64,000 nucleotides of DNA, taken from Ferrimonas kyonanensis DSM 18153 (lineage in GTDB: Bacteria; Pseudomonadota; Gammaproteobacteria; Enterobacterales; Shewanellaceae). The translations under genes were made by a program, and so were the position numbers. The notes beneath the pieces are model-generated. The model saw nothing but the letters and a program-made list of their open reading frames with translations. It did no database searches and had not been told where the DNA came from. Below are positions 11,366-22,712 of this stretch, in pieces (position 1 is the stretch's first letter; each line of letters starts with the position of its first letter). The DNA lies in assembly GCF_000425405.1 (NCBI RefSeq), contig NZ_AUDJ01000014.1:1-64000 (forward strand), written 5' to 3'.

Positions 11366-12144
11366 CCCTGGAACCTTTAGACCGGCATCAGCAGCAACTG
11401 CTGCTGTCACAGATGATCGTGGTGGCCCGGCAGGCGGGCGAAGCGGCGATGGCCCATTATGGCCAGCCGCAGACCCGCTATAAGCAAGACGACAGTCCGC
11501 TGACTCAGGCGGATCTGGCCAGTCACCAGGCCCTGGTTCAGGGCATCCGCGACTGGGGCAACCCCTGGCCGGTGTTGTCGGAGGAGGCCGGCTTGGCGCC
11601 GTGGGAACTGCGGCGGCAGTGGCAACGCTATTGGTTGTTGGATCCGGTTGACGGCACCAAGGAGTTCATCGCCGAAAATGGCGAGTTCACCATCAATATC
11701 GCGCTGATCGAGCAAGGCGTGCCGCTGCTTGGGGTGGTGGTGGCACCGGCGCTGGGGAAACTCTACAGTGGTGGCCGGGACCTGGGGGCCTGGCTGGAAG
11801 ACGAGTCCGGTCTGCGGGCCATTAGCGGTGGCCAGTGCGGCGCGGTGCCCAGAGTGGTGACCAGTCGCTCTCACCCCTCGGCCGAATTGGCACAGTGGTT
11901 AAGCCGTTATCCCAAGGTATCACTGGTTGAGGTGGGCAGTTCGTTAAAGCTGTGTCTGTTGGCCGAAGGCAAGGCGGATCTGTACCCCAGGTTGGGCCCG
12001 ACCAGCGAGTGGGACATTGCGGCGGCACACGCGGTGCTGGAAGGGGCCGGAGGCAGCGTTCGTACCCTGGATGACCAGCCGCTGGGTTACAACGGCAAGG
12101 CCTCGGTGCTTAACCCGCACTTCATCGCTCGCAGCGACGGATAA
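11362..12144 (+). CDS. cysQ: 3'(2'),5'-bisphosphate nucleotidase
   Basis: Mg-dependent phosphatase of the inositol-monophosphatase fold that hydrolyses PAP, the by-product of PAPS reduction, to AMP. 260 residues. The metal-binding motifs are LSEEAG (about residue 73), [12 protein letters not shown] and [17 protein letters not shown]. It overlaps cysC by 4 bp and is the last gene of the sulfate operon. No strong plus-strand terminator is its own: the hairpin that follows has its T-tract on the minus strand and belongs to the converging small RNA. Confidence 0.95.
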
Positions 12145-12219
12145 AAAAAACCACCTTAAAAAAGGTGGTTAAATATAATGGAGATGATGATGAAACAAAT
12201 TTCAGTTCAAATTTGTTAC
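12143..12219 (-). ncRNA. MicA-like candidate sRNA, copy 0
   Basis: Predicted 77-nt transcript on the minus strand between a UPF0149-like gene and cysQ. It shares with five plus-strand units at 14.5-16.5 kb a start at GTAAC, the core GTTTCATCATCATCTCC (12182-12195 region) and a terminal hairpin (AACCACCTT/AAGGTGGTT, 12149-12170) followed on this strand by eight T. Unlike the others it has an extra 5' hairpin, AACAAATTT / AAATTTGTT, immediately before the core. No open reading frame of note lies in it. The transcript is inferred from promoter, terminator and paralogy; it has not been observed. Confidence 0.78.
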
Positions 12220-12224
12220 ATAAG

Positions 12225-12252
12225 GTCAGAGTCTCCATTGCTGCGTTAGTTC
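12225..12252 (-). promoter_or_regulatory. Sigma-E-like promoter of sRNA copy 0
   Basis: On the minus strand GAACTA (12252-12247), 16 bases, TCTGAC (12230-12225), then GTAAC six bases on. E. coli sigma-E (RpoE) promoters read GAACTT-N16-TCTGA. Confidence 0.75.
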
Positions 12253-12317
12253 AAATTTTTACCCATCTTTTTCGATATTTTTTCGCGCTATTTATTTCTT
12301 CTTTTGCCTTCATGCAC

Positions 12318-13706
12318 TTAGCCACAGCACTTTTTGTACTTCTTGCCACTTCCGCAGGGGCAGGGATCGTTTCGGCCAGTGGTTTTGCCGTGAGTCGCGG
12401 TGATCGTGGAGTCTGGCTCGGTGTCCACCGGGCGCTTATCACCCTGCTGGTAGCGCTGGAACAGCTGTTGGATCAGCGTCGTCGCGCCGGGCCAGCCGCC
12501 TTGGGGCAGACTGGGTCCACAGGCATCCGGCCAGGGGCCTCCCAGTGCGCTCTGCTGAGACTGGGGTAACTGCTTGGCGACGCCTCTGGCCAGTGAGCGC
12601 AGCTCGTTGGCCTGAGCGGCGGCACCGCCGAGCAGCGGTGATAATGCCTCGCCGAGGCGGGCGTCAGTCAGTTGCGCTTGCTGATGCAGCCAGGCGAGGG
12701 CGCCCAGGCACAGGCTGCGCGCCTGAGTATCGAGCTGCTCTTGTTTCAACAGGCCCATCAAGTACCCTGGCGCCTGATTGAACAGCTGCCCCAGGCATTG
12801 AGCCAGCGCCGCATAGTGGTGCTCAAACAGCCGGGCCATCGGGCTGTCGGTGTGCCAATGAAAGCGCAGCAGGGTATCGATGGCATCGCGAACATCCTGA
12901 TGGGCGTTGGCGTCAGCCAGGCACCACAGGCTGTGCCAGTGACCGATGTAGTCCTGATTGTTCAGATCGATTTGCGGTGCATCCACAAACAGCTGCAACT
13001 CCTCCTGAGCCAGTTTTACCAGCAGTGGCGAGGGCGGCTGCAGTTCGTTCAACAGCGCTTCGGGCAGGTCGCCGGTATGCAGCGTCAGTTGCTCAATCAG
13101 GGATTCATGCTCCATGAGCTGGTTGTCTGCGTCCGGGTGTTGGCCCAGAAACAGGGCGGCGGCCTGATTGATCACTTCACACAGGTGGCGTCGAACCTGT
13201 CTGGCTTCGGCGATGAATGCCGCGTCATCGAGTCCGTTTTGTTGGCAGTGGGCCTGGACCTGATGCAGGTTGGCAAAAAAGCAGCCATAGCTGGCAAAGG
13301 CTGCGATGGTGGGCTGCAGATCGGGATCCTGATGATCCAGTTGCTCCATCACCAGCGGCAGGCCGTGCTCAAACCCGGCGGCCCACTGGGCCAGGGGCGA
13401 GTCTGGGGCAAAGCCTCGCAGTGGCTCAGCCTGGGGCAGGCGGCATTGGCTGGGCAGTACCAGAGCCTGAGTTTTGAGTGCCGCGGCGGCCTGCTGATAC
13501 AACTGCACCAGCGCCGGACTCAGATCGTCATCCAGGGCCTGCTCCGGGCCCAGCAGAATCGCCAGCCAATGGCTGGGTAATACCGGCGTCGGCGCACAGA
13601 CAACGGCGCTGATAAAGCCATGCAGATAGTAGTAGTTCAGGCTGGCTTCGCAGGGAAGCGGCAGACGATTGATGGCGTGACGGAGTTTTTGCGGTGAAAG
13701 TGACAT
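12318..13706 (-). CDS. UPF0149 (YecA/YgfB)-like protein with C-terminal SEC-C motif
   Basis: A 462-residue protein of unknown function. The N-terminus (YYYLHGFISAVVCAP, about residues 26-40) matches the UPF0149/YgfB-YecA signature. The middle is helical. The last residues, GRNDPCPCGSGKKYKKCCG, form a SEC-C zinc-binding motif as found at the C-terminus of SecA and YecA. The ATG at 13706 (MSLSPQKL) is taken as the start; an in-frame extension to 13760 looks non-coding. Its 3' end is followed by the promoter of sRNA copy 0 on the same strand. YecA-type proteins have been linked to the ribosome or Sec pathway, but this protein is larger and its role is not inferable. Confidence 0.8.
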   Translation of the reverse strand: MSLSPQKLRHAINRLPLPCEASLNYYYLHGFISAVVCAPTPVLPSHWLAILLGPEQALDDDLSPALVQLYQQAAAALKTQALVLPSQCRLPQAEPLRGFAPDSPLAQWAAGFEHGLPLVMEQLDHQDPDLQPTIAAFASYGCFFANLHQVQAHCQQNGLDDAAFIAEARQVRRHLCEVINQAAALFLGQHPDADNQLMEHESLIEQLTLHTGDLPEALLNELQPPSPLLVKLAQEELQLFVDAPQIDLNNQDYIGHWHSLWCLADANAHQDVRDAIDTLLRFHWHTDSPMARLFEHHYAALAQCLGQLFNQAPGYLMGLLKQEQLDTQARSLCLGALAWLHQQAQLTDARLGEALSPLLGGAAAQANELRSLARGVAKQLPQSQQSALGGPWPDACGPSLPQGGWPGATTLIQQLFQRYQQGDKRPVDTEPDSTITATHGKTTGRNDPCPCGSGKKYKKCCG

Positions 13707-13875
13707 AGTGATCGACTGGCAGTGAAAAATGCAGCGGTTAGCTGATGAGGCGCCGATCATAGCAGATTGCGCCGTTCGGTGAGGCGAGGAATTTACCCGA
13801 CTTTACCCTGGGTTGACGTTGGTTGAAGTTGACGGCGTTAGGCTTACCGTTAACAGGGTGCACTCAGGAGGACCT

Positions 13876-14361
13876 ATGCAACGTGTTATCGCACTGATTG
13901 TGACCGCCACACTGCTGGTCAGCCCGGCACTGCAGGCCAAACCTCATTCGGGGAAGGCCCATAAGGGCAAGAATGTCATCATCGTGAAGCCGGGGTATCA
14001 CCATAAACCCTATCGAAACCACTACTCTTATCATCGTCATGAGTTGGCGCGGATCGCCACCTTTGCGGTGTTCGCCGGAGTGACCTATGCCATTGTCGAT
14101 AACGCCTATTATCGCCAGCAGGGGGACAGCTATGTGTACGTGGCTCAGCCTCCTGCAGGCAGTTATCAGGTGCTGTCTGGTGAGCCCCAGCCGGTGTTAG
14201 CCGCTCCGGAGTATGCACTCGGACAGCGGGTGCAACGATTGCCGGCAGACAGCCGGGCCGTGACGGTGGATGGGGTGTCGTACCGGGAGCATGAGGGCGT
14301 CTGGTTTGCGCCGTTGCAGGGAGGTAGCGGGTACGTGGTAACGACATCGCCGTTGAACTGA
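13876..14361 (+). CDS. Exported DUF6515-like protein
   Basis: 161 residues with an N-terminal signal peptide (MQRVIALIVTATLLVSPALQA, cleavage about residue 21). A His/Lys/Tyr-rich stretch follows, then a hydrophobic segment at about 57-72 (IATFAVFAGVTYAIV), then a C-terminal domain with VDGVSYREHEGVWF and GSGYVVTTSP. That pattern of Tyr/Gly-rich strands is typical of DUF6515 periplasmic proteins of unknown function. AGGAGG at 13867 fixes the ATG start. No operon partner; the downstream region is the sRNA cluster. Confidence 0.7.
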   Translation: MQRVIALIVTATLLVSPALQAKPHSGKAHKGKNVIIVKPGYHHKPYRNHYSYHRHELARIATFAVFAGVTYAIVDNAYYRQQGDSYVYVAQPPAGSYQVLSGEPQPVLAAPEYALGQRVQRLPADSRAVTVDGVSYREHEGVWFAPLQGGSGYVVTTSPLN

Positions 14362-14465
14362 CCGGAAGTTACAGTGATAGGTGATTGTAATGTGTTGATT
14401 TTAATGACCTTTGGCTCCTGTTTCAGCCAGGGGTGAAAAAATTGGTGATTTTTTTCATGACGGCT

Positions 14466-14493
14466 GAACTTTTGTTGTTTTTTCCGCTCTATA
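14466..14493 (+). promoter_or_regulatory. Sigma-E-like promoter of sRNA copy 1
   Basis: GAACTT (14466-14471), 16 bases, TCTATA (14488-14493), with the predicted start G six bases downstream at 14499. Confidence 0.75.
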
Positions 14494-14498
14494 TAAGG

Positions 14499-14576
14499 GT
14501 AACGAATTCAGTTTCATCATCATCATCTCCTTGAATAAAGTATTCTTCGTCATCTCCTTGAGGTGGCGTTTTTTTT
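14499..14576 (+). ncRNA. MicA-like candidate sRNA, copy 1
   Basis: Predicted 78-nt RNA beginning GTAACGAATTCAG. Its core has four CAT units (TTTCATCATCATCATCTCC) instead of three. The terminator at 14548-14576 is CGTCATCT / AGGTGGCG around a CCTTG loop, with two G-U pairs, then eight T. Reading the 14362-15190 region as protein gives nothing convincing. It is the first of four units in tandem between the DUF6515-like gene and aroG. Confidence 0.82.
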
Positions 14577-14626
14577 GCCCGGATTTTGTTGCCAATAAAA
14601 AAAGCCGGTTTTTTTTCTGACCCGGT

Positions 14627-14654
14627 GAACTTTTCTGATGGCGGCGACTCTATA
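14627..14654 (+). promoter_or_regulatory. Sigma-E-like promoter of sRNA copy 2
   Basis: GAACTT (14627-14632), 16 bases, TCTATA (14649-14654), predicted start G at 14660. The base pair before the -10 box is GAC, as in copies 3 and 4. Confidence 0.78.
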
Positions 14655-14659
14655 TCTCT

Positions 14660-14734
14660 GTAACGAATTTAGTTTCATCATCATCTCTCAGAATTCCTTA
14701 TTCTCCGCCATCTCCTTGAGATGGCGTTTTTTTT
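14660..14734 (+). ncRNA. MicA-like candidate sRNA, copy 2
   Basis: Predicted 75-nt RNA: GTAACGAATTTAG, core TTTCATCATCATCTCT, a GAATTC-containing linker, then the terminator 14706-14734 (CGCCATCT / AGATGGCG, perfect 8-bp stem, loop CCTTG, eight T). The stem differs from copies 3 and 4 at paired positions (ATCT/AGAT against ACCT/AGGT), a compensatory change supporting an RNA structure. Confidence 0.84.
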
Positions 14735-14831
14735 GCTCGCTGTCAGGGCGCCTCTGCCCGCTGGCAGCGGGGCTGCGAGCGCGGTTGGCATTGGGCGAGA
14801 ACAGGAGAAGAAAAAAACGGGGGTTGCTATG

Positions 14832-14859
14832 GAACTTTGGCGACCGGTTCGACTCTATA
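14832..14859 (+). promoter_or_regulatory. Sigma-E-like promoter of sRNA copy 3
   Basis: GAACTT (14832-14837), 16 bases, TCTATA (14854-14859), predicted start G at 14865. Confidence 0.78.
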
Positions 14860-14864
14860 TTTCT

Positions 14865-14938
14865 GTAACGAATTTGGTTTCATCATCATCTCCTGAATTC
14901 CTTAATGTTCGCCACCTGTTTGAGGTGGCGTTTTTTTT
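14865..14938 (+). ncRNA. MicA-like candidate sRNA, copy 3
   Basis: Predicted 74-nt RNA: GTAACGAATTTGG, core TTTCATCATCATCTCC directly followed by TGAATTC, then the terminator 14910-14938 (CGCCACCT / AGGTGGCG, loop GTTTG, eight T). This copy is the closest to E. coli MicA as I remember it: both have TCATCATC, CCTGAATTC and a GCCAC...GTGGC terminator. Confidence 0.85.
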
Positions 14939-15029
14939 GCCAACGGTTCAGGTAAGCGCATTAATGCCGTTGTGGCATTTCATAAGATTCGGATTTTTAA
15001 TTAAATTTAAAAAAATTACTTCGAGGCGT

Positions 15030-15057
15030 GAACTTTTAGGAAACGGAGGACTCTATT
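15030..15057 (+). promoter_or_regulatory. Sigma-E-like promoter of sRNA copy 4
   Basis: GAACTT (15030-15035), 16 bases, TCTATT (15052-15057), predicted start G at 15063. It is preceded by an AT-rich stretch (14995-15020). Confidence 0.76.
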
Positions 15058-15062
15058 GAAAG

Positions 15063-15137
15063 GTAACGAATTTAGTTTCATCATCATCTCCCTGACAGTT
15101 TTGTTGCTCGCCACCTCCTTGAGGTGGCGTTTTTTTT
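15063..15137 (+). ncRNA. MicA-like candidate sRNA, copy 4
   Basis: Predicted 75-nt RNA: GTAACGAATTTAG, core TTTCATCATCATCTCC, linker CTGACAG, then the terminator 15109-15137 (CGCCACCT / AGGTGGCG, loop CCTTG, eight T). It ends 54 bp before the 3' end of the converging aroG gene. Confidence 0.84.
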
Positions 15138-15163
15138 GCTGTCGGGAAAGTGGCCGTCAACGA

Positions 15164-15181
15164 CCCCACTCGGTGGTGGGG
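15164..15181. terminator. Hairpin downstream of aroG
   Basis: CCCCAC, loop TCGGTG, GTGGGG, ten bases beyond the aroG stop. No T-run follows on the minus strand, so termination efficiency is doubtful; it also separates aroG from sRNA copy 4. Confidence 0.45.
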
Positions 15182-15190
15182 CCATCGCAG

Positions 15191-16246
15191 TTAGCGCTGA
15201 CGGCGGGCCCGCACGGCAGTGGCTAACGTTCTGAGAACCGACTCACTGTCATCCCAGCCGATGCAGCCATCGGTAATGCTCTGGCCGTAAGTCAGGCTGT
15301 CGGGCGTGGCGAGATCCTGGCGTCCCTCCACCAGGTGACTCTCAATCATGGCGCCGAAGATATTCTGGTTGCCTGCGGCCAGTTGCTCACACACGTTGTC
15401 GGCCACGTCTAACTGACGCTTGAACTGCTTTTCGCTGTTGGCGTGGCTGAAATCGATCATGATGTTGGCGGGCAGGGCAGCCTGATGCAACTGCTCGGTA
15501 ATGGCGGCCACCTGCTCGGCCTGGTAATTGGGGCTTTTGCCGCCGCGCAGGATGATGTGGCAATCCTGGTTGCCTGTGGTGGACACGATGGCCGAGTGGC
15601 CATACTTGGTGACCGACAGGAAGTGGTGCGGTGCGTTGGCGGAGTTGATGGCATCGATGGCGATTTTGATGGTGCCATCGGTACCGTTTTTAAAGCCCAC
15701 CGGGCAAGAGAGGCCGGAAGCCAGCTCACGGTGAACCTGAGACTCGGTGGTTCGGGCACCGATGGCACCCCAACACATTAGATCGGCCACGTACTGAGGG
15801 GTGATCATATCCAGGAACTCACCGGCGGTCGGCAGTCCCATCTGATTCAACTCCAACAGCAGCTTGCGGGCGGTGCGCAGGCCGTCATTGAGCTTGAAGC
15901 TGTTGTCCAGCAGCGGATCGTTGATCAACCCTTTCCAGCCGACGGTGGTGCGGGGCTTTTCGAAATAGACCCGCATGACGATCTCGAGGTCGTCTTTGAG
16001 TTCTTCCCGTAACACATTGAGCTTGCGGCCGTATTCCAGTGCAGCCTTGGGGTCGTGAATGGAACAGGGGCCGATGACCACCAGCAGGCGGTCGTCCTGA
16101 CGGTTCATCATATTGTGGATGGATTGCCGGGCCTGATAGACGGTGGCGGCGGCGTTGTCGTCCAGGGGAAATCGTTCCAGAATCGCAATGGGGGGTAGCA
16201 GTTCTTTTATTTTATCGATGCGTACGTCATCGGTTTGGTAGTACAT
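15191..16246 (-). CDS. aroG: 3-deoxy-7-phosphoheptulonate (DAHP) synthase, AroG type
   Basis: First enzyme of the shikimate pathway, condensing phosphoenolpyruvate and erythrose 4-phosphate. 351 residues, type I-alpha. The N-terminus MYYQTDDVRIDKIKELLPP is almost that of E. coli AroG, the phenylalanine-sensitive isozyme. Active-site blocks: IGPCSIHDP (about residue 58), RVYFEKPRTTVGWKG, TGARTTESQVHRE-type segment (GARTTESQVHRE), GFKNGTDG and IDFSHANSEK. It is a single gene on the minus strand. sRNA units flank it on both sides, pointing toward its 3' end (copies 1-4) and away from its 5' end (copy 5). Which amino acid inhibits it is inferred only from similarity. Confidence 0.95.
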   Translation of the reverse strand: MYYQTDDVRIDKIKELLPPIAILERFPLDDNAAATVYQARQSIHNMMNRQDDRLLVVIGPCSIHDPKAALEYGRKLNVLREELKDDLEIVMRVYFEKPRTTVGWKGLINDPLLDNSFKLNDGLRTARKLLLELNQMGLPTAGEFLDMITPQYVADLMCWGAIGARTTESQVHRELASGLSCPVGFKNGTDGTIKIAIDAINSANAPHHFLSVTKYGHSAIVSTTGNQDCHIILRGGKSPNYQAEQVAAITEQLHQAALPANIMIDFSHANSEKQFKRQLDVADNVCEQLAAGNQNIFGAMIESHLVEGRQDLATPDSLTYGQSITDGCIGWDDSESVLRTLATAVRARRQR

Positions 16247-16375
16247 AATGCGACTCCAGAATTTAACTATCTAATAAGAATTATAAAATTAATCCACAAG
16301 TGAACCCAAGATGACTGTAAACGCCCCTCTGAATCGATGCAAGCGGCCAAATGTGGATTTTTTTCACTTTTGGCT

Positions 16376-16403
16376 GAACTTTCTGTGGCCTGGGTACTCT
16401 GAC
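16376..16403 (+). promoter_or_regulatory. Sigma-E-like promoter of sRNA copy 5
   Basis: GAACTT (16376-16381), 16 bases, TCTGAC (16398-16403). This is the E. coli RpoE consensus as I know it. Predicted start G at 16410. Confidence 0.78.
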
Positions 16404-16409
16404 TTAACA

Positions 16410-16506
16410 GTAAACACAGTTTCTTTAAGCTTGTTTTCATCATCATCTCCTTTTCTTTGCTACAGATTCAGTACCGCCACTCCCTTTGTTGGAGTGGTTT
16501 TTTTTT
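16410..16506 (+). ncRNA. MicA-like candidate sRNA, copy 5
   Basis: Predicted 97-nt RNA upstream of and divergent from aroG. It begins GTAAACACAG, keeps the core TTTTCATCATCATCTCC (16435-16450) and ends in a terminator at 16477-16506 (CCACTCC / GGAGTGG, loop CTTTGTT, nine T). It is the most diverged copy outside the core, with a longer 5' segment and a different stem sequence. Together with its promoter it fills most of the 377-bp gap 16247-16623. The remaining 16247-16375 presumably holds the aroG promoter, which I could not assign. Confidence 0.8.
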
Positions 16507-22608: not shown

Positions 22609-22712
22609 GATGCCCCCGGTCCTCTCGCAATAATAGTACGTGAACTCGGCCAGGCCCGGAAGGGAGCAACCGCAGCGTATGACTTATGTGCCGGGATGTG
22701 GCTGGGGGTGTC
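22609..22712 (+). ncRNA. ffs: Signal recognition particle RNA (4.5S)
   Basis: The 4.5S RNA that with Ffh targets membrane proteins to the Sec translocon. The conserved core is recognised by GGCCAGGCCCGGAAGGGAGC and GTGCCGGGATGTGGCTGGGGG (about 22648-22709). The 5' end GATGCCCCCGG pairs with the 3' end CTGGGGGTGTC, giving the expected single hairpin of about 104 nt. End positions are estimated from the pairing. The integrase remnant begins 70 bp downstream, which fits the known use of ffs as an integration site. Confidence 0.9.

Follow-up and report, generated by a model that had tools for sequence, protein, structure and literature searches.

Six sigma-E-type promoters of Ferrimonas kyonanensis precede putative MicA-like small RNA genes with predicted targets among exported proteins

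A stretch of 64,000 nucleotides (nt) from Ferrimonas kyonanensis DSM 18153 (contig NZ_AUDJ01000014.1, positions 1 to 64,000; hereafter the window) contains six sigma-E-type promoter sites, which are probably the RpoE promoters of six MicA-like small RNA (sRNA) genes that would repress the mRNAs of exported proteins at their start region. The preliminary description of this DNA dealt with the promoters; beyond its text, we found each promoter to be followed by a conserved seed with an intrinsic terminator behind it. Every promoter heads a unit of 74 to 97 nt. This unit begins with GTAA and a short leader, continues with a TCA-repeat seed (UUUCAUCAUCAUCUCC) and a stretch of variable sequence, and ends in the terminator, a GC-rich stem with a run of at least seven T (Table 1). 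The seed, which reads TTTCATCATCATCTCC in units 1, 4, 5, and 6, is antisense to GGAG-AUGAUG-AUG-AAA, a sequence that spans the ribosome-binding site and the start codon in mRNAs for exported proteins.

Table 1. Promoters and sRNA-like units in the window
Feature	Position	Strand	Remarks
Unit 1 promoter, sigma-E-type	12225..12252	-	GAACTA-N16-TCTGAC
Unit 1, type A sRNA-like gene	12143..12219	-	5' hairpin, seed TTTCATCATCATCTCC at 12195-12180, terminator; abuts cysQ 3' end
Unit 2 promoter, sigma-E-type	14466..14493	+	GAACTT-N16-TCTATA
Unit 2, type B sRNA-like gene	14499..14576	+	seed with one additional TCA
Unit 3 promoter, sigma-E-type	14627..14654	+	GAACTT-N16-TCTATA
Unit 3, type B sRNA-like gene	14660..14734	+	seed ends TCTCT
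Unit 4 promoter, sigma-E-type	14832..14859	+	GAACTT-N16-TCTATA
Unit 4, type B sRNA-like gene	14865..14938	+	best alignment to Escherichia coli MicA, z 7.0
Unit 5 promoter, sigma-E-type	15030..15057	+	GAACTT-N16-TCTATT; hexamers are those of the own rpoE promoter
Unit 5, type B sRNA-like gene	15063..15137	+	seed TTTCATCATCATCTCC
Unit 6 promoter, sigma-E-type	16376..16403	+	GAACTT-N16-TCTGAC
Unit 6, type C sRNA-like gene	16410..16506	+	longer leader; seed TTTCATCATCATCTCC at 16435-16450

All six GAACT(T/A)-N16-TCT(ATA/ATT/GAC) sites of the preliminary description, with their exact 16-base spacers, are present in the sequence. Its placement of the starts six to seven bases past the hexamer also agrees with our analysis, in which the +1 positions were inferred by aligning the unit 5' ends to the one annotated for E. 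coli micA: with GTAA as +1, the distance is six bases in units 1 to 5 and seven in unit 6, corresponding to 11 and 12 nt, respectively, from the start of the -10 hexamer to +1. Six exact spacings had further been considered very unlikely to occur by chance. The six matches in the window compare with 0.08 expected, and none of 100 shuffled sequences reached six, but this test is post hoc, since the pattern was written from the same six sites. The six-site pattern had zero further matches within the 64,000 nt. The whole-genome motif scan that had been proposed as a check was far less telling, as a looser GAACT-N17-TCT motif was barely enriched (94 matches versus 87 in a reversed control). The combination of promoter and seed was found six times in the source genome, and all six matches lie in the window cluster. 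Because the looser motif is hardly enriched genome-wide, the evidence lies in the joint occurrence of promoter and unit, and not in the motif alone.

The structure of the units resembles that of RNA genes. The seed is predicted to be mostly single stranded, with a mean unpaired fraction of 0.87 to 1.00. The terminator stem was assessed in an alignment of 22 type B units, which came from six genomes. Of its cells, 98.9% were paired and nine showed a double change, and the covariation score was 0.210; each of these three values was reached by none of 500 shuffles. When the partner strand was slid by one to three columns, pairing fell to between 33 and 58%, a control that carries more weight than the shuffles because the latter ignore relatedness. 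A check for small proteins revealed no sense-strand ATG in four of the six unit RNAs and an ATG past the seed in the other two, while GTG and TTG are present. The source genome contains hfq, and this gene, together with the single-stranded seed and the U-run terminator, gives the units the features expected of Hfq-dependent, trans-encoded sRNAs.

A single gene of the source genome scored above the cut-off of the RpoE model (TIGR02939, 337.8 bits; cut-off 236.15). It is followed by rseA, for which both Pfam RseA domains were matched. Upstream of it lies GAACTT-N16-TCTATT, identical to unit 5 in hexamers and spacing, with 61 nt between the end of the hexamer and the start codon. Comparable promoters precede E. 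coli micA (GAACTC-N16-TCTGAG) and rybB (GAACTT-N16-TCTTAA), and in Salmonella the promoters of both RNAs need rpoE (PMC1804206). Furthermore, an A/T run of at least six bases lies within the 20 bases upstream of GAAC in 52 of 54 units from the genus, as is also the case for E. coli micA and rybB, which suggests UP elements. The earlier proposal that envelope stress acting through RpoE is the input thus gains support from the promoter of rpoE itself, from the two E. coli promoters, and from the occurrence of promoter and unit across the family described below; as judged from sequence, it is the well-supported best reading of the six sites.

Promoter and unit were detected in all 14 Ferrimonas genomes, with two to six counted units each. 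On extraction, 59 rows were obtained, which were reduced to 57, as rows 18 and 28 were repeat readings of the same unit from an internal GAAC, and then to 54 by excluding rows 48, 52, and 55 (genomes G394, G395, and G401), which have a 15-base spacer and lack the A/T tract upstream. Of the 54 units counted, 53 have a 16-base spacer and one a 17-base spacer. The spacer was fixed at 16 bases in some of the genus searches and allowed to span 15 to 17 bases in another search, which covered seven genomes, and 15 to 17 bases were allowed at every locus during unit extraction. The extraction pattern missed some degenerate copies of the arrays, which can be seen among the loci and were left uncounted. 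The invariance of GAAC and TC carries no weight because it was forced by the search pattern; the T or G before GAAC and the C or G before TCT, each present in 53/53 units, were not. The loci of the three excluded rows (L366, L367, and L368) carry a conserved GAACTC-N15-TCTGA...CATCATCATCC followed by a terminator.

A covariance model built from type B units gave one to seven matches in 13 of the 14 Ferrimonas genomes; in the exception, G397, the pattern search found two units. Elsewhere in the family, 20 of 82 genomes gave a single weak match each with the same model. When a longer leader between promoter and seed was allowed, the pattern matched in 44 of 146 genomes of the family; these 44 include no Ferrimonas genome, and the control gave two matches. 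Inspection by eye revealed a TGAACCGA-like leader downstream of the -10 hexamer in 39 of the 44, whereas four appeared to be chance matches and one was ambiguous; promoter and unit in the longer-leader form therefore occur in 39 of the 132 family genomes outside Ferrimonas. A sister genus, probably Shewanella, has related sigma-E tandem arrays of up to six copies, and in one of its genomes (G460) the second unit bears a Ferrimonas-like TGTAACGAATT leader. Among 15 loci of sister genera, eight matched in the stored orientation, and in most of these eight the seed is followed by a T-run. A restriction of the system to Ferrimonas, suggested by its apparent absence from 29 sister-genus genomes, was refuted: the first pattern accepted no more than 40 nt from the -10 hexamer to the seed, and the leaders in the sister genus are longer. 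Single matches elsewhere in the order (G080 and G183) look like chance.

We then considered what the seed may recognize. Its reverse complement, GGAGATGATGATGAAA, reads as a Shine-Dalgarno sequence, a six-base spacer, ATG, and AAA. With up to two mismatches, 41 sites were found in the source genome, namely, seven in the six units, one in the 3' untranslated region (UTR) of a dps-like gene, and 33 elsewhere, all of which were examined (nine with no or one mismatch and 24 with two). Eight of the nine closest sites lie on start codons, and six of these eight belong to multihaem c-type cytochromes: a decahaem cytochrome of the DmsE family, whose 316 bits exceed the cut-off; a CctA-like tetrahaem cytochrome, which at 80 bits falls short of the CctA cut-off of 180; a pair of multihaem paralogues that match Cytochrome_C554; and two further multihaem proteins. 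The remaining two are the starts of a DcaP porin and a DUF3373 protein. Of the 24 two-mismatch sites, 16 are starts of exported-type proteins, with signal peptides and lipoproteins recognized by eye, and two of these proteins are multihaem (L011 and L015). Duplexes of the unit 4 seed region with the eight target starts ranged from -24.3 to -32.3 kcal/mol, compared with a mean of -14.9 and a minimum of -22.2 kcal/mol for 52 control starts. Whole-RNA duplex energies were uninformative, with controls as low as targets for several units, because the terminator contributes to them; only the seed-only energies of unit 4 were used.

At the level of the genus, 84 sites with no or one mismatch were collected, comprising the eight starts of the source genome and 76 sites in twelve other genomes. 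The ninth site of the source genome (L010) was left out, as were, by hand, sites in known units, which were the only sites in G030. An open reading frame (ORF) of at least 60 amino acids begins at 66 of the 84 sites; two (L287 and L321) were dropped as antisense to an RNA linked to nagA. At least three CXXCH motifs are present in 39 of the 64 genes thus considered and in none of 52 ATG-initiated ORFs of at least 200 amino acids in the window, a base rate that refers to the window. The Cytochrome_C554-matching multihaem paralogues retain the site in several species.

These data suggest the following scheme. Envelope stress would free RpoE from RseA, and RpoE would then transcribe all six units along with its own operon. 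Each RNA would present its single-stranded seed upstream of the rho-independent terminator and, with Hfq, pair to the Shine-Dalgarno and start codon region of exported-protein mRNAs. Pairing would block ribosome entry and promote mRNA decay, and the cell would benefit from a reduced load on export and folding.

Several observations weigh against this scheme. The TCTATA and TCTATT hexamers deviate from the E. coli core TCTGA, and two of five terminator measures were within the range of the shuffles, namely, the pairs with a double change (2; 117/500) and the further pair types (6; 127/500). A seed that mirrors Shine-Dalgarno sequence, spacer, AUG, and AAA inherently matches many exported-protein starts, and the low energies of the target duplexes are partly circular because the targets were chosen by complementarity. 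In a control with 20 sister-genera sites picked by hand among the matches listed, 11 were gene starts by eye, and only one of these 11 belonged to a multihaem protein; this is not a clean negative control, since the main sister genus also carries the RNAs. In addition, four further sigma factors of the extracytoplasmic function (ECF) type score weakly with the RpoE model, at 47.7 to 57.0 bits. One or several of these, with an RpoE-like specificity, might read the units instead, as many ECF promoters have GAAC in the -35 element. We regard this as quite unlikely: a single gene exceeds the RpoE cut-off, its promoter shares hexamers and spacing with unit 5, and most of the sister-genus units listed have TCTGA, like E. 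coli micA.

A different doubt concerns the targets, which might chiefly be classic outer membrane proteins, as for MicA and RybB, with the cytochromes matching incidentally because many of them in Ferrimonas begin with ATG-ATG-ATG-AAA behind a strong Shine-Dalgarno sequence. Any start composed of Shine-Dalgarno sequence, ATG, and AAA resembles a target, and the scarcity of multihaem proteins among the two-mismatch sites agrees with this possibility; yet the closest matches are rich in cytochromes, both in the source genome and in the genus, and the site is kept in the C554-type paralogues, so that an incidental origin of the cytochrome matches appears unlikely, if worth bearing in mind. Hardly credible is the notion that the units are not RNA genes but a repeated intergenic element, similar to repetitive extragenic palindromes (REP) or miniature inverted-repeat transposable elements (MITE), or remnants of gene starts on the opposite strand. 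The copies are indeed similar and in tandem, and the antisense strand, GGAG-ATGATGATG-AAA, resembles a gene start and has short ORFs. However, these ORFs comprise just 9 to 17 codons at the unit sites (L269, L270, and L326), conservation extends to promoter, seed, and terminator but not to the spacer of the promoter or the DNA between units, the terminator stem remains paired through changes, and the promoter-seed combination is confined to this one cluster of the genome. Transcription of the six units by RpoE as MicA-like sRNAs thus remains the probable reading.

The six units are distributed around a small set of genes, with type A beside cysQ, type B in tandem between a gene for a VPA0510-like protein and aroG, and type C beyond aroG; a SEC-C-type protein is also encoded next to the array. 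In G399, G391, G398, and G402, copies of type A were also found, and types A, B, and C all surround the same aroG. In other Ferrimonas species, arrays are near a threonine dehydratase or topoisomerase gene (L224, L226, and L362; L225 and L359), and these differing neighbours between species suggest that the array moved within the genus. The terminator of unit 1 overlaps the 3' end of cysQ on the opposite strand (window positions 12143-12150), and the two probably have a common bidirectional terminator. No tRNA was found in the 64,000-nt window, and the sole Rfam match at gathering score is a bacterial small signal recognition particle RNA gene (positions 22614-22710).

The seed was also observed behind other genes. 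The 3' UTR of the dps-like gene (L007:1048-1131; C10, approximately 90747-90830) carries two seed copies, TTTCATCATCATC, followed by a terminator. The encoded protein is ferritin-like, with matches to Dps models below the cut-offs. A seed lies between stop codon and terminator at three of 13 dps-like loci, in the source genome and G399 with two copies each and in G374 with one, and no sigma-E-type promoter was seen before the seed at the dps-like loci. In G391 and G402, seed and terminator lie 23 to 25 nt behind the stop codon of a gene for a tetrahaem cytochrome of the c3 type (L284 and L385), an arrangement in which a cytochrome mRNA may release an RNA directed against cytochromes. A porin-like gene without a Pfam match is followed by the seed and a strong terminator in G391 and G398, with the seed presented between the arms of a GACACGA/TCGTGTC-type stem; there is a further copy about 240 bases away in G391 and one in G402, with no such gene found upstream (loci L386, L388, and L327). 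Finally, seed and terminator are located 153 nt downstream of nagA in G391, G398, and G402 (L384, L300, and L321), the identity of nagA being based on a TIGR00221 match above the cut-off for the G398 protein. It is conceivable, though we advance it only tentatively, that the seed UUUCAUCAUCAUC is an address common to RNAs with different inputs, namely, the sigma-E genes, the 3' ends of the dps-like, cytochrome, and porin-like genes, and the RNA downstream of nagA, which would converge on the translation of exported multihaem cytochromes and porins. In that case, a single posttranscriptional brake on extracellular respiration in metal-respiring bacteria would respond to envelope stress, to signals of oxidation or starvation, and to the expression of cytochromes or porins itself.

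The sRNAs controlled by sigma-E are the noncoding arm of the envelope stress response and act on porins. In the source genome, this arm seems to have been multiplied six-fold and redirected to the multihaem cytochromes that serve mineral respiration in Ferrimonas and probably in Shewanella. Three features appear to be new: the number of copies, the cytochromes as predicted targets, and the presence of the same seed behind dps-like, tetrahaem cytochrome, porin-like, and nagA genes. Two questions arise, namely, whether extracellular electron transfer is shut down under envelope stress and what a lineage gains from two to six copies of one seed, be it dose, speed, or copy-specific targets. The data also suggest MicA-like sigma-E RNAs in a further family, in which the Rfam MicA model missed its threshold at the loci scanned.

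Searches of the open-licence literature found no paper with both Ferrimonas and small RNA, and those on sigma-E sRNAs together with Shewanella or cytochromes revealed no account of such arrays; an article on sRNAs of Shewanella piezotolerans (PMC5471319) does not mention MicA, RpoE, or sigma. Several known systems nevertheless share individual traits with the units. FoxI and FoxJ of Fusobacterium nucleatum are two sigma-E sRNAs of one genome with similar seeds and a promoter motif in common with rpoE (PMC11005410); they differ from the units in being two separate genes with C-stretch seeds in another phylum. RyhB of Shewanella oneidensis represses, with Hfq, c-type cytochromes including cctA (PMC5826389), but its input is Fur and iron, as opposed to the probable envelope stress input of the units. 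RybB and the Vibrio RNAs MicV and VrrA are sigma-E-driven and Hfq-dependent and lower outer membrane protein synthesis, and one seed-pairing domain is common to MicV and VrrA (PMC7602753 and PMC1804206). The likeness to RyhB and to the Vibrio RNAs is one of description only, and there was no clear sequence similarity to RybB (best z of 2.0 among 13 sequences). Several homologous stress sRNAs side by side, under other sigma factors, are reportedly represented by CcsR1 to CcsR4 of Rhodobacter.

The units were also compared with MicA (RF00078). Its distance of 11 nt between the start of the -10 hexamer and +1 is that predicted for units 1 to 5, and its length of about 70 nt is close to the 74 to 97 nt of the units. 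When 13 sequences were aligned with nucleotides 1 to 45 of E. coli MicA, which include its 5' pairing region, unit 4 gave a z of 7.0 over shuffled sequences and unit 5 one of 5.1 (0/500 shuffles each), followed by unit 3 (4.8), unit 1 (3.3), unit 6 (2.6), and unit 2 (2.5). For seven units of other species, z values of 3.9, 3.9, 2.6, 1.6, 1.2, 0.8, and -0.2 were obtained, and those of three distant Ferrimonas species and one sister-genus unit were not clearly above shuffles (-0.2 to 1.6). Units 4 and 5 scored 26.1 and 24.8 bits with the Rfam MicA model, below its gathering score of 41; no MicA was detected in the window at that score or at ten loci of relatives at E values of up to 5, where other Rfam models of CU-rich sRNAs (CUCCCU stretch) scored similarly, below threshold. 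A blastn search of E. coli genomes with unit 5 returned only a 21-base match outside micA (E of 3), which counts against a homology recognizable by plain similarity. MicA is a single-copy gene between luxS and gshA, whereas the units form six copies near cysQ and aroG, and a scan of 20 ORFs that flank eleven loci of relatives gave no match to the LuxS or GshA families. MicA represses ompA, and the units are predicted to target cytochromes. Since the Rfam threshold was missed, the location between luxS and gshA is not shared, and alignment fails for units of distant species, we refer to the units as MicA-like and not as MicA.

MicA has been placed in the Enterobacteriaceae, with repeat variation in its mRNA-binding region (PMC4618604), and the variation in TCA copy number among the units is of this MicA type. 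A MicA homologue outside this family has been proposed once before, namely, CT_532 of Bordetella pertussis, which is Hfq-dependent and interacts with ompA (PMC12235514). According to that article, its level does not change when rseA is mutated, and the ompA-pairing region of MicA is missing from it; CT_532 and the units are both MicA-like but are likened by description only. Taken together, the comparisons identify E. coli MicA, as far as sequence can tell, as the closest known relative of the MicA-like units, which may work as MicA does and quite possibly descend from it.

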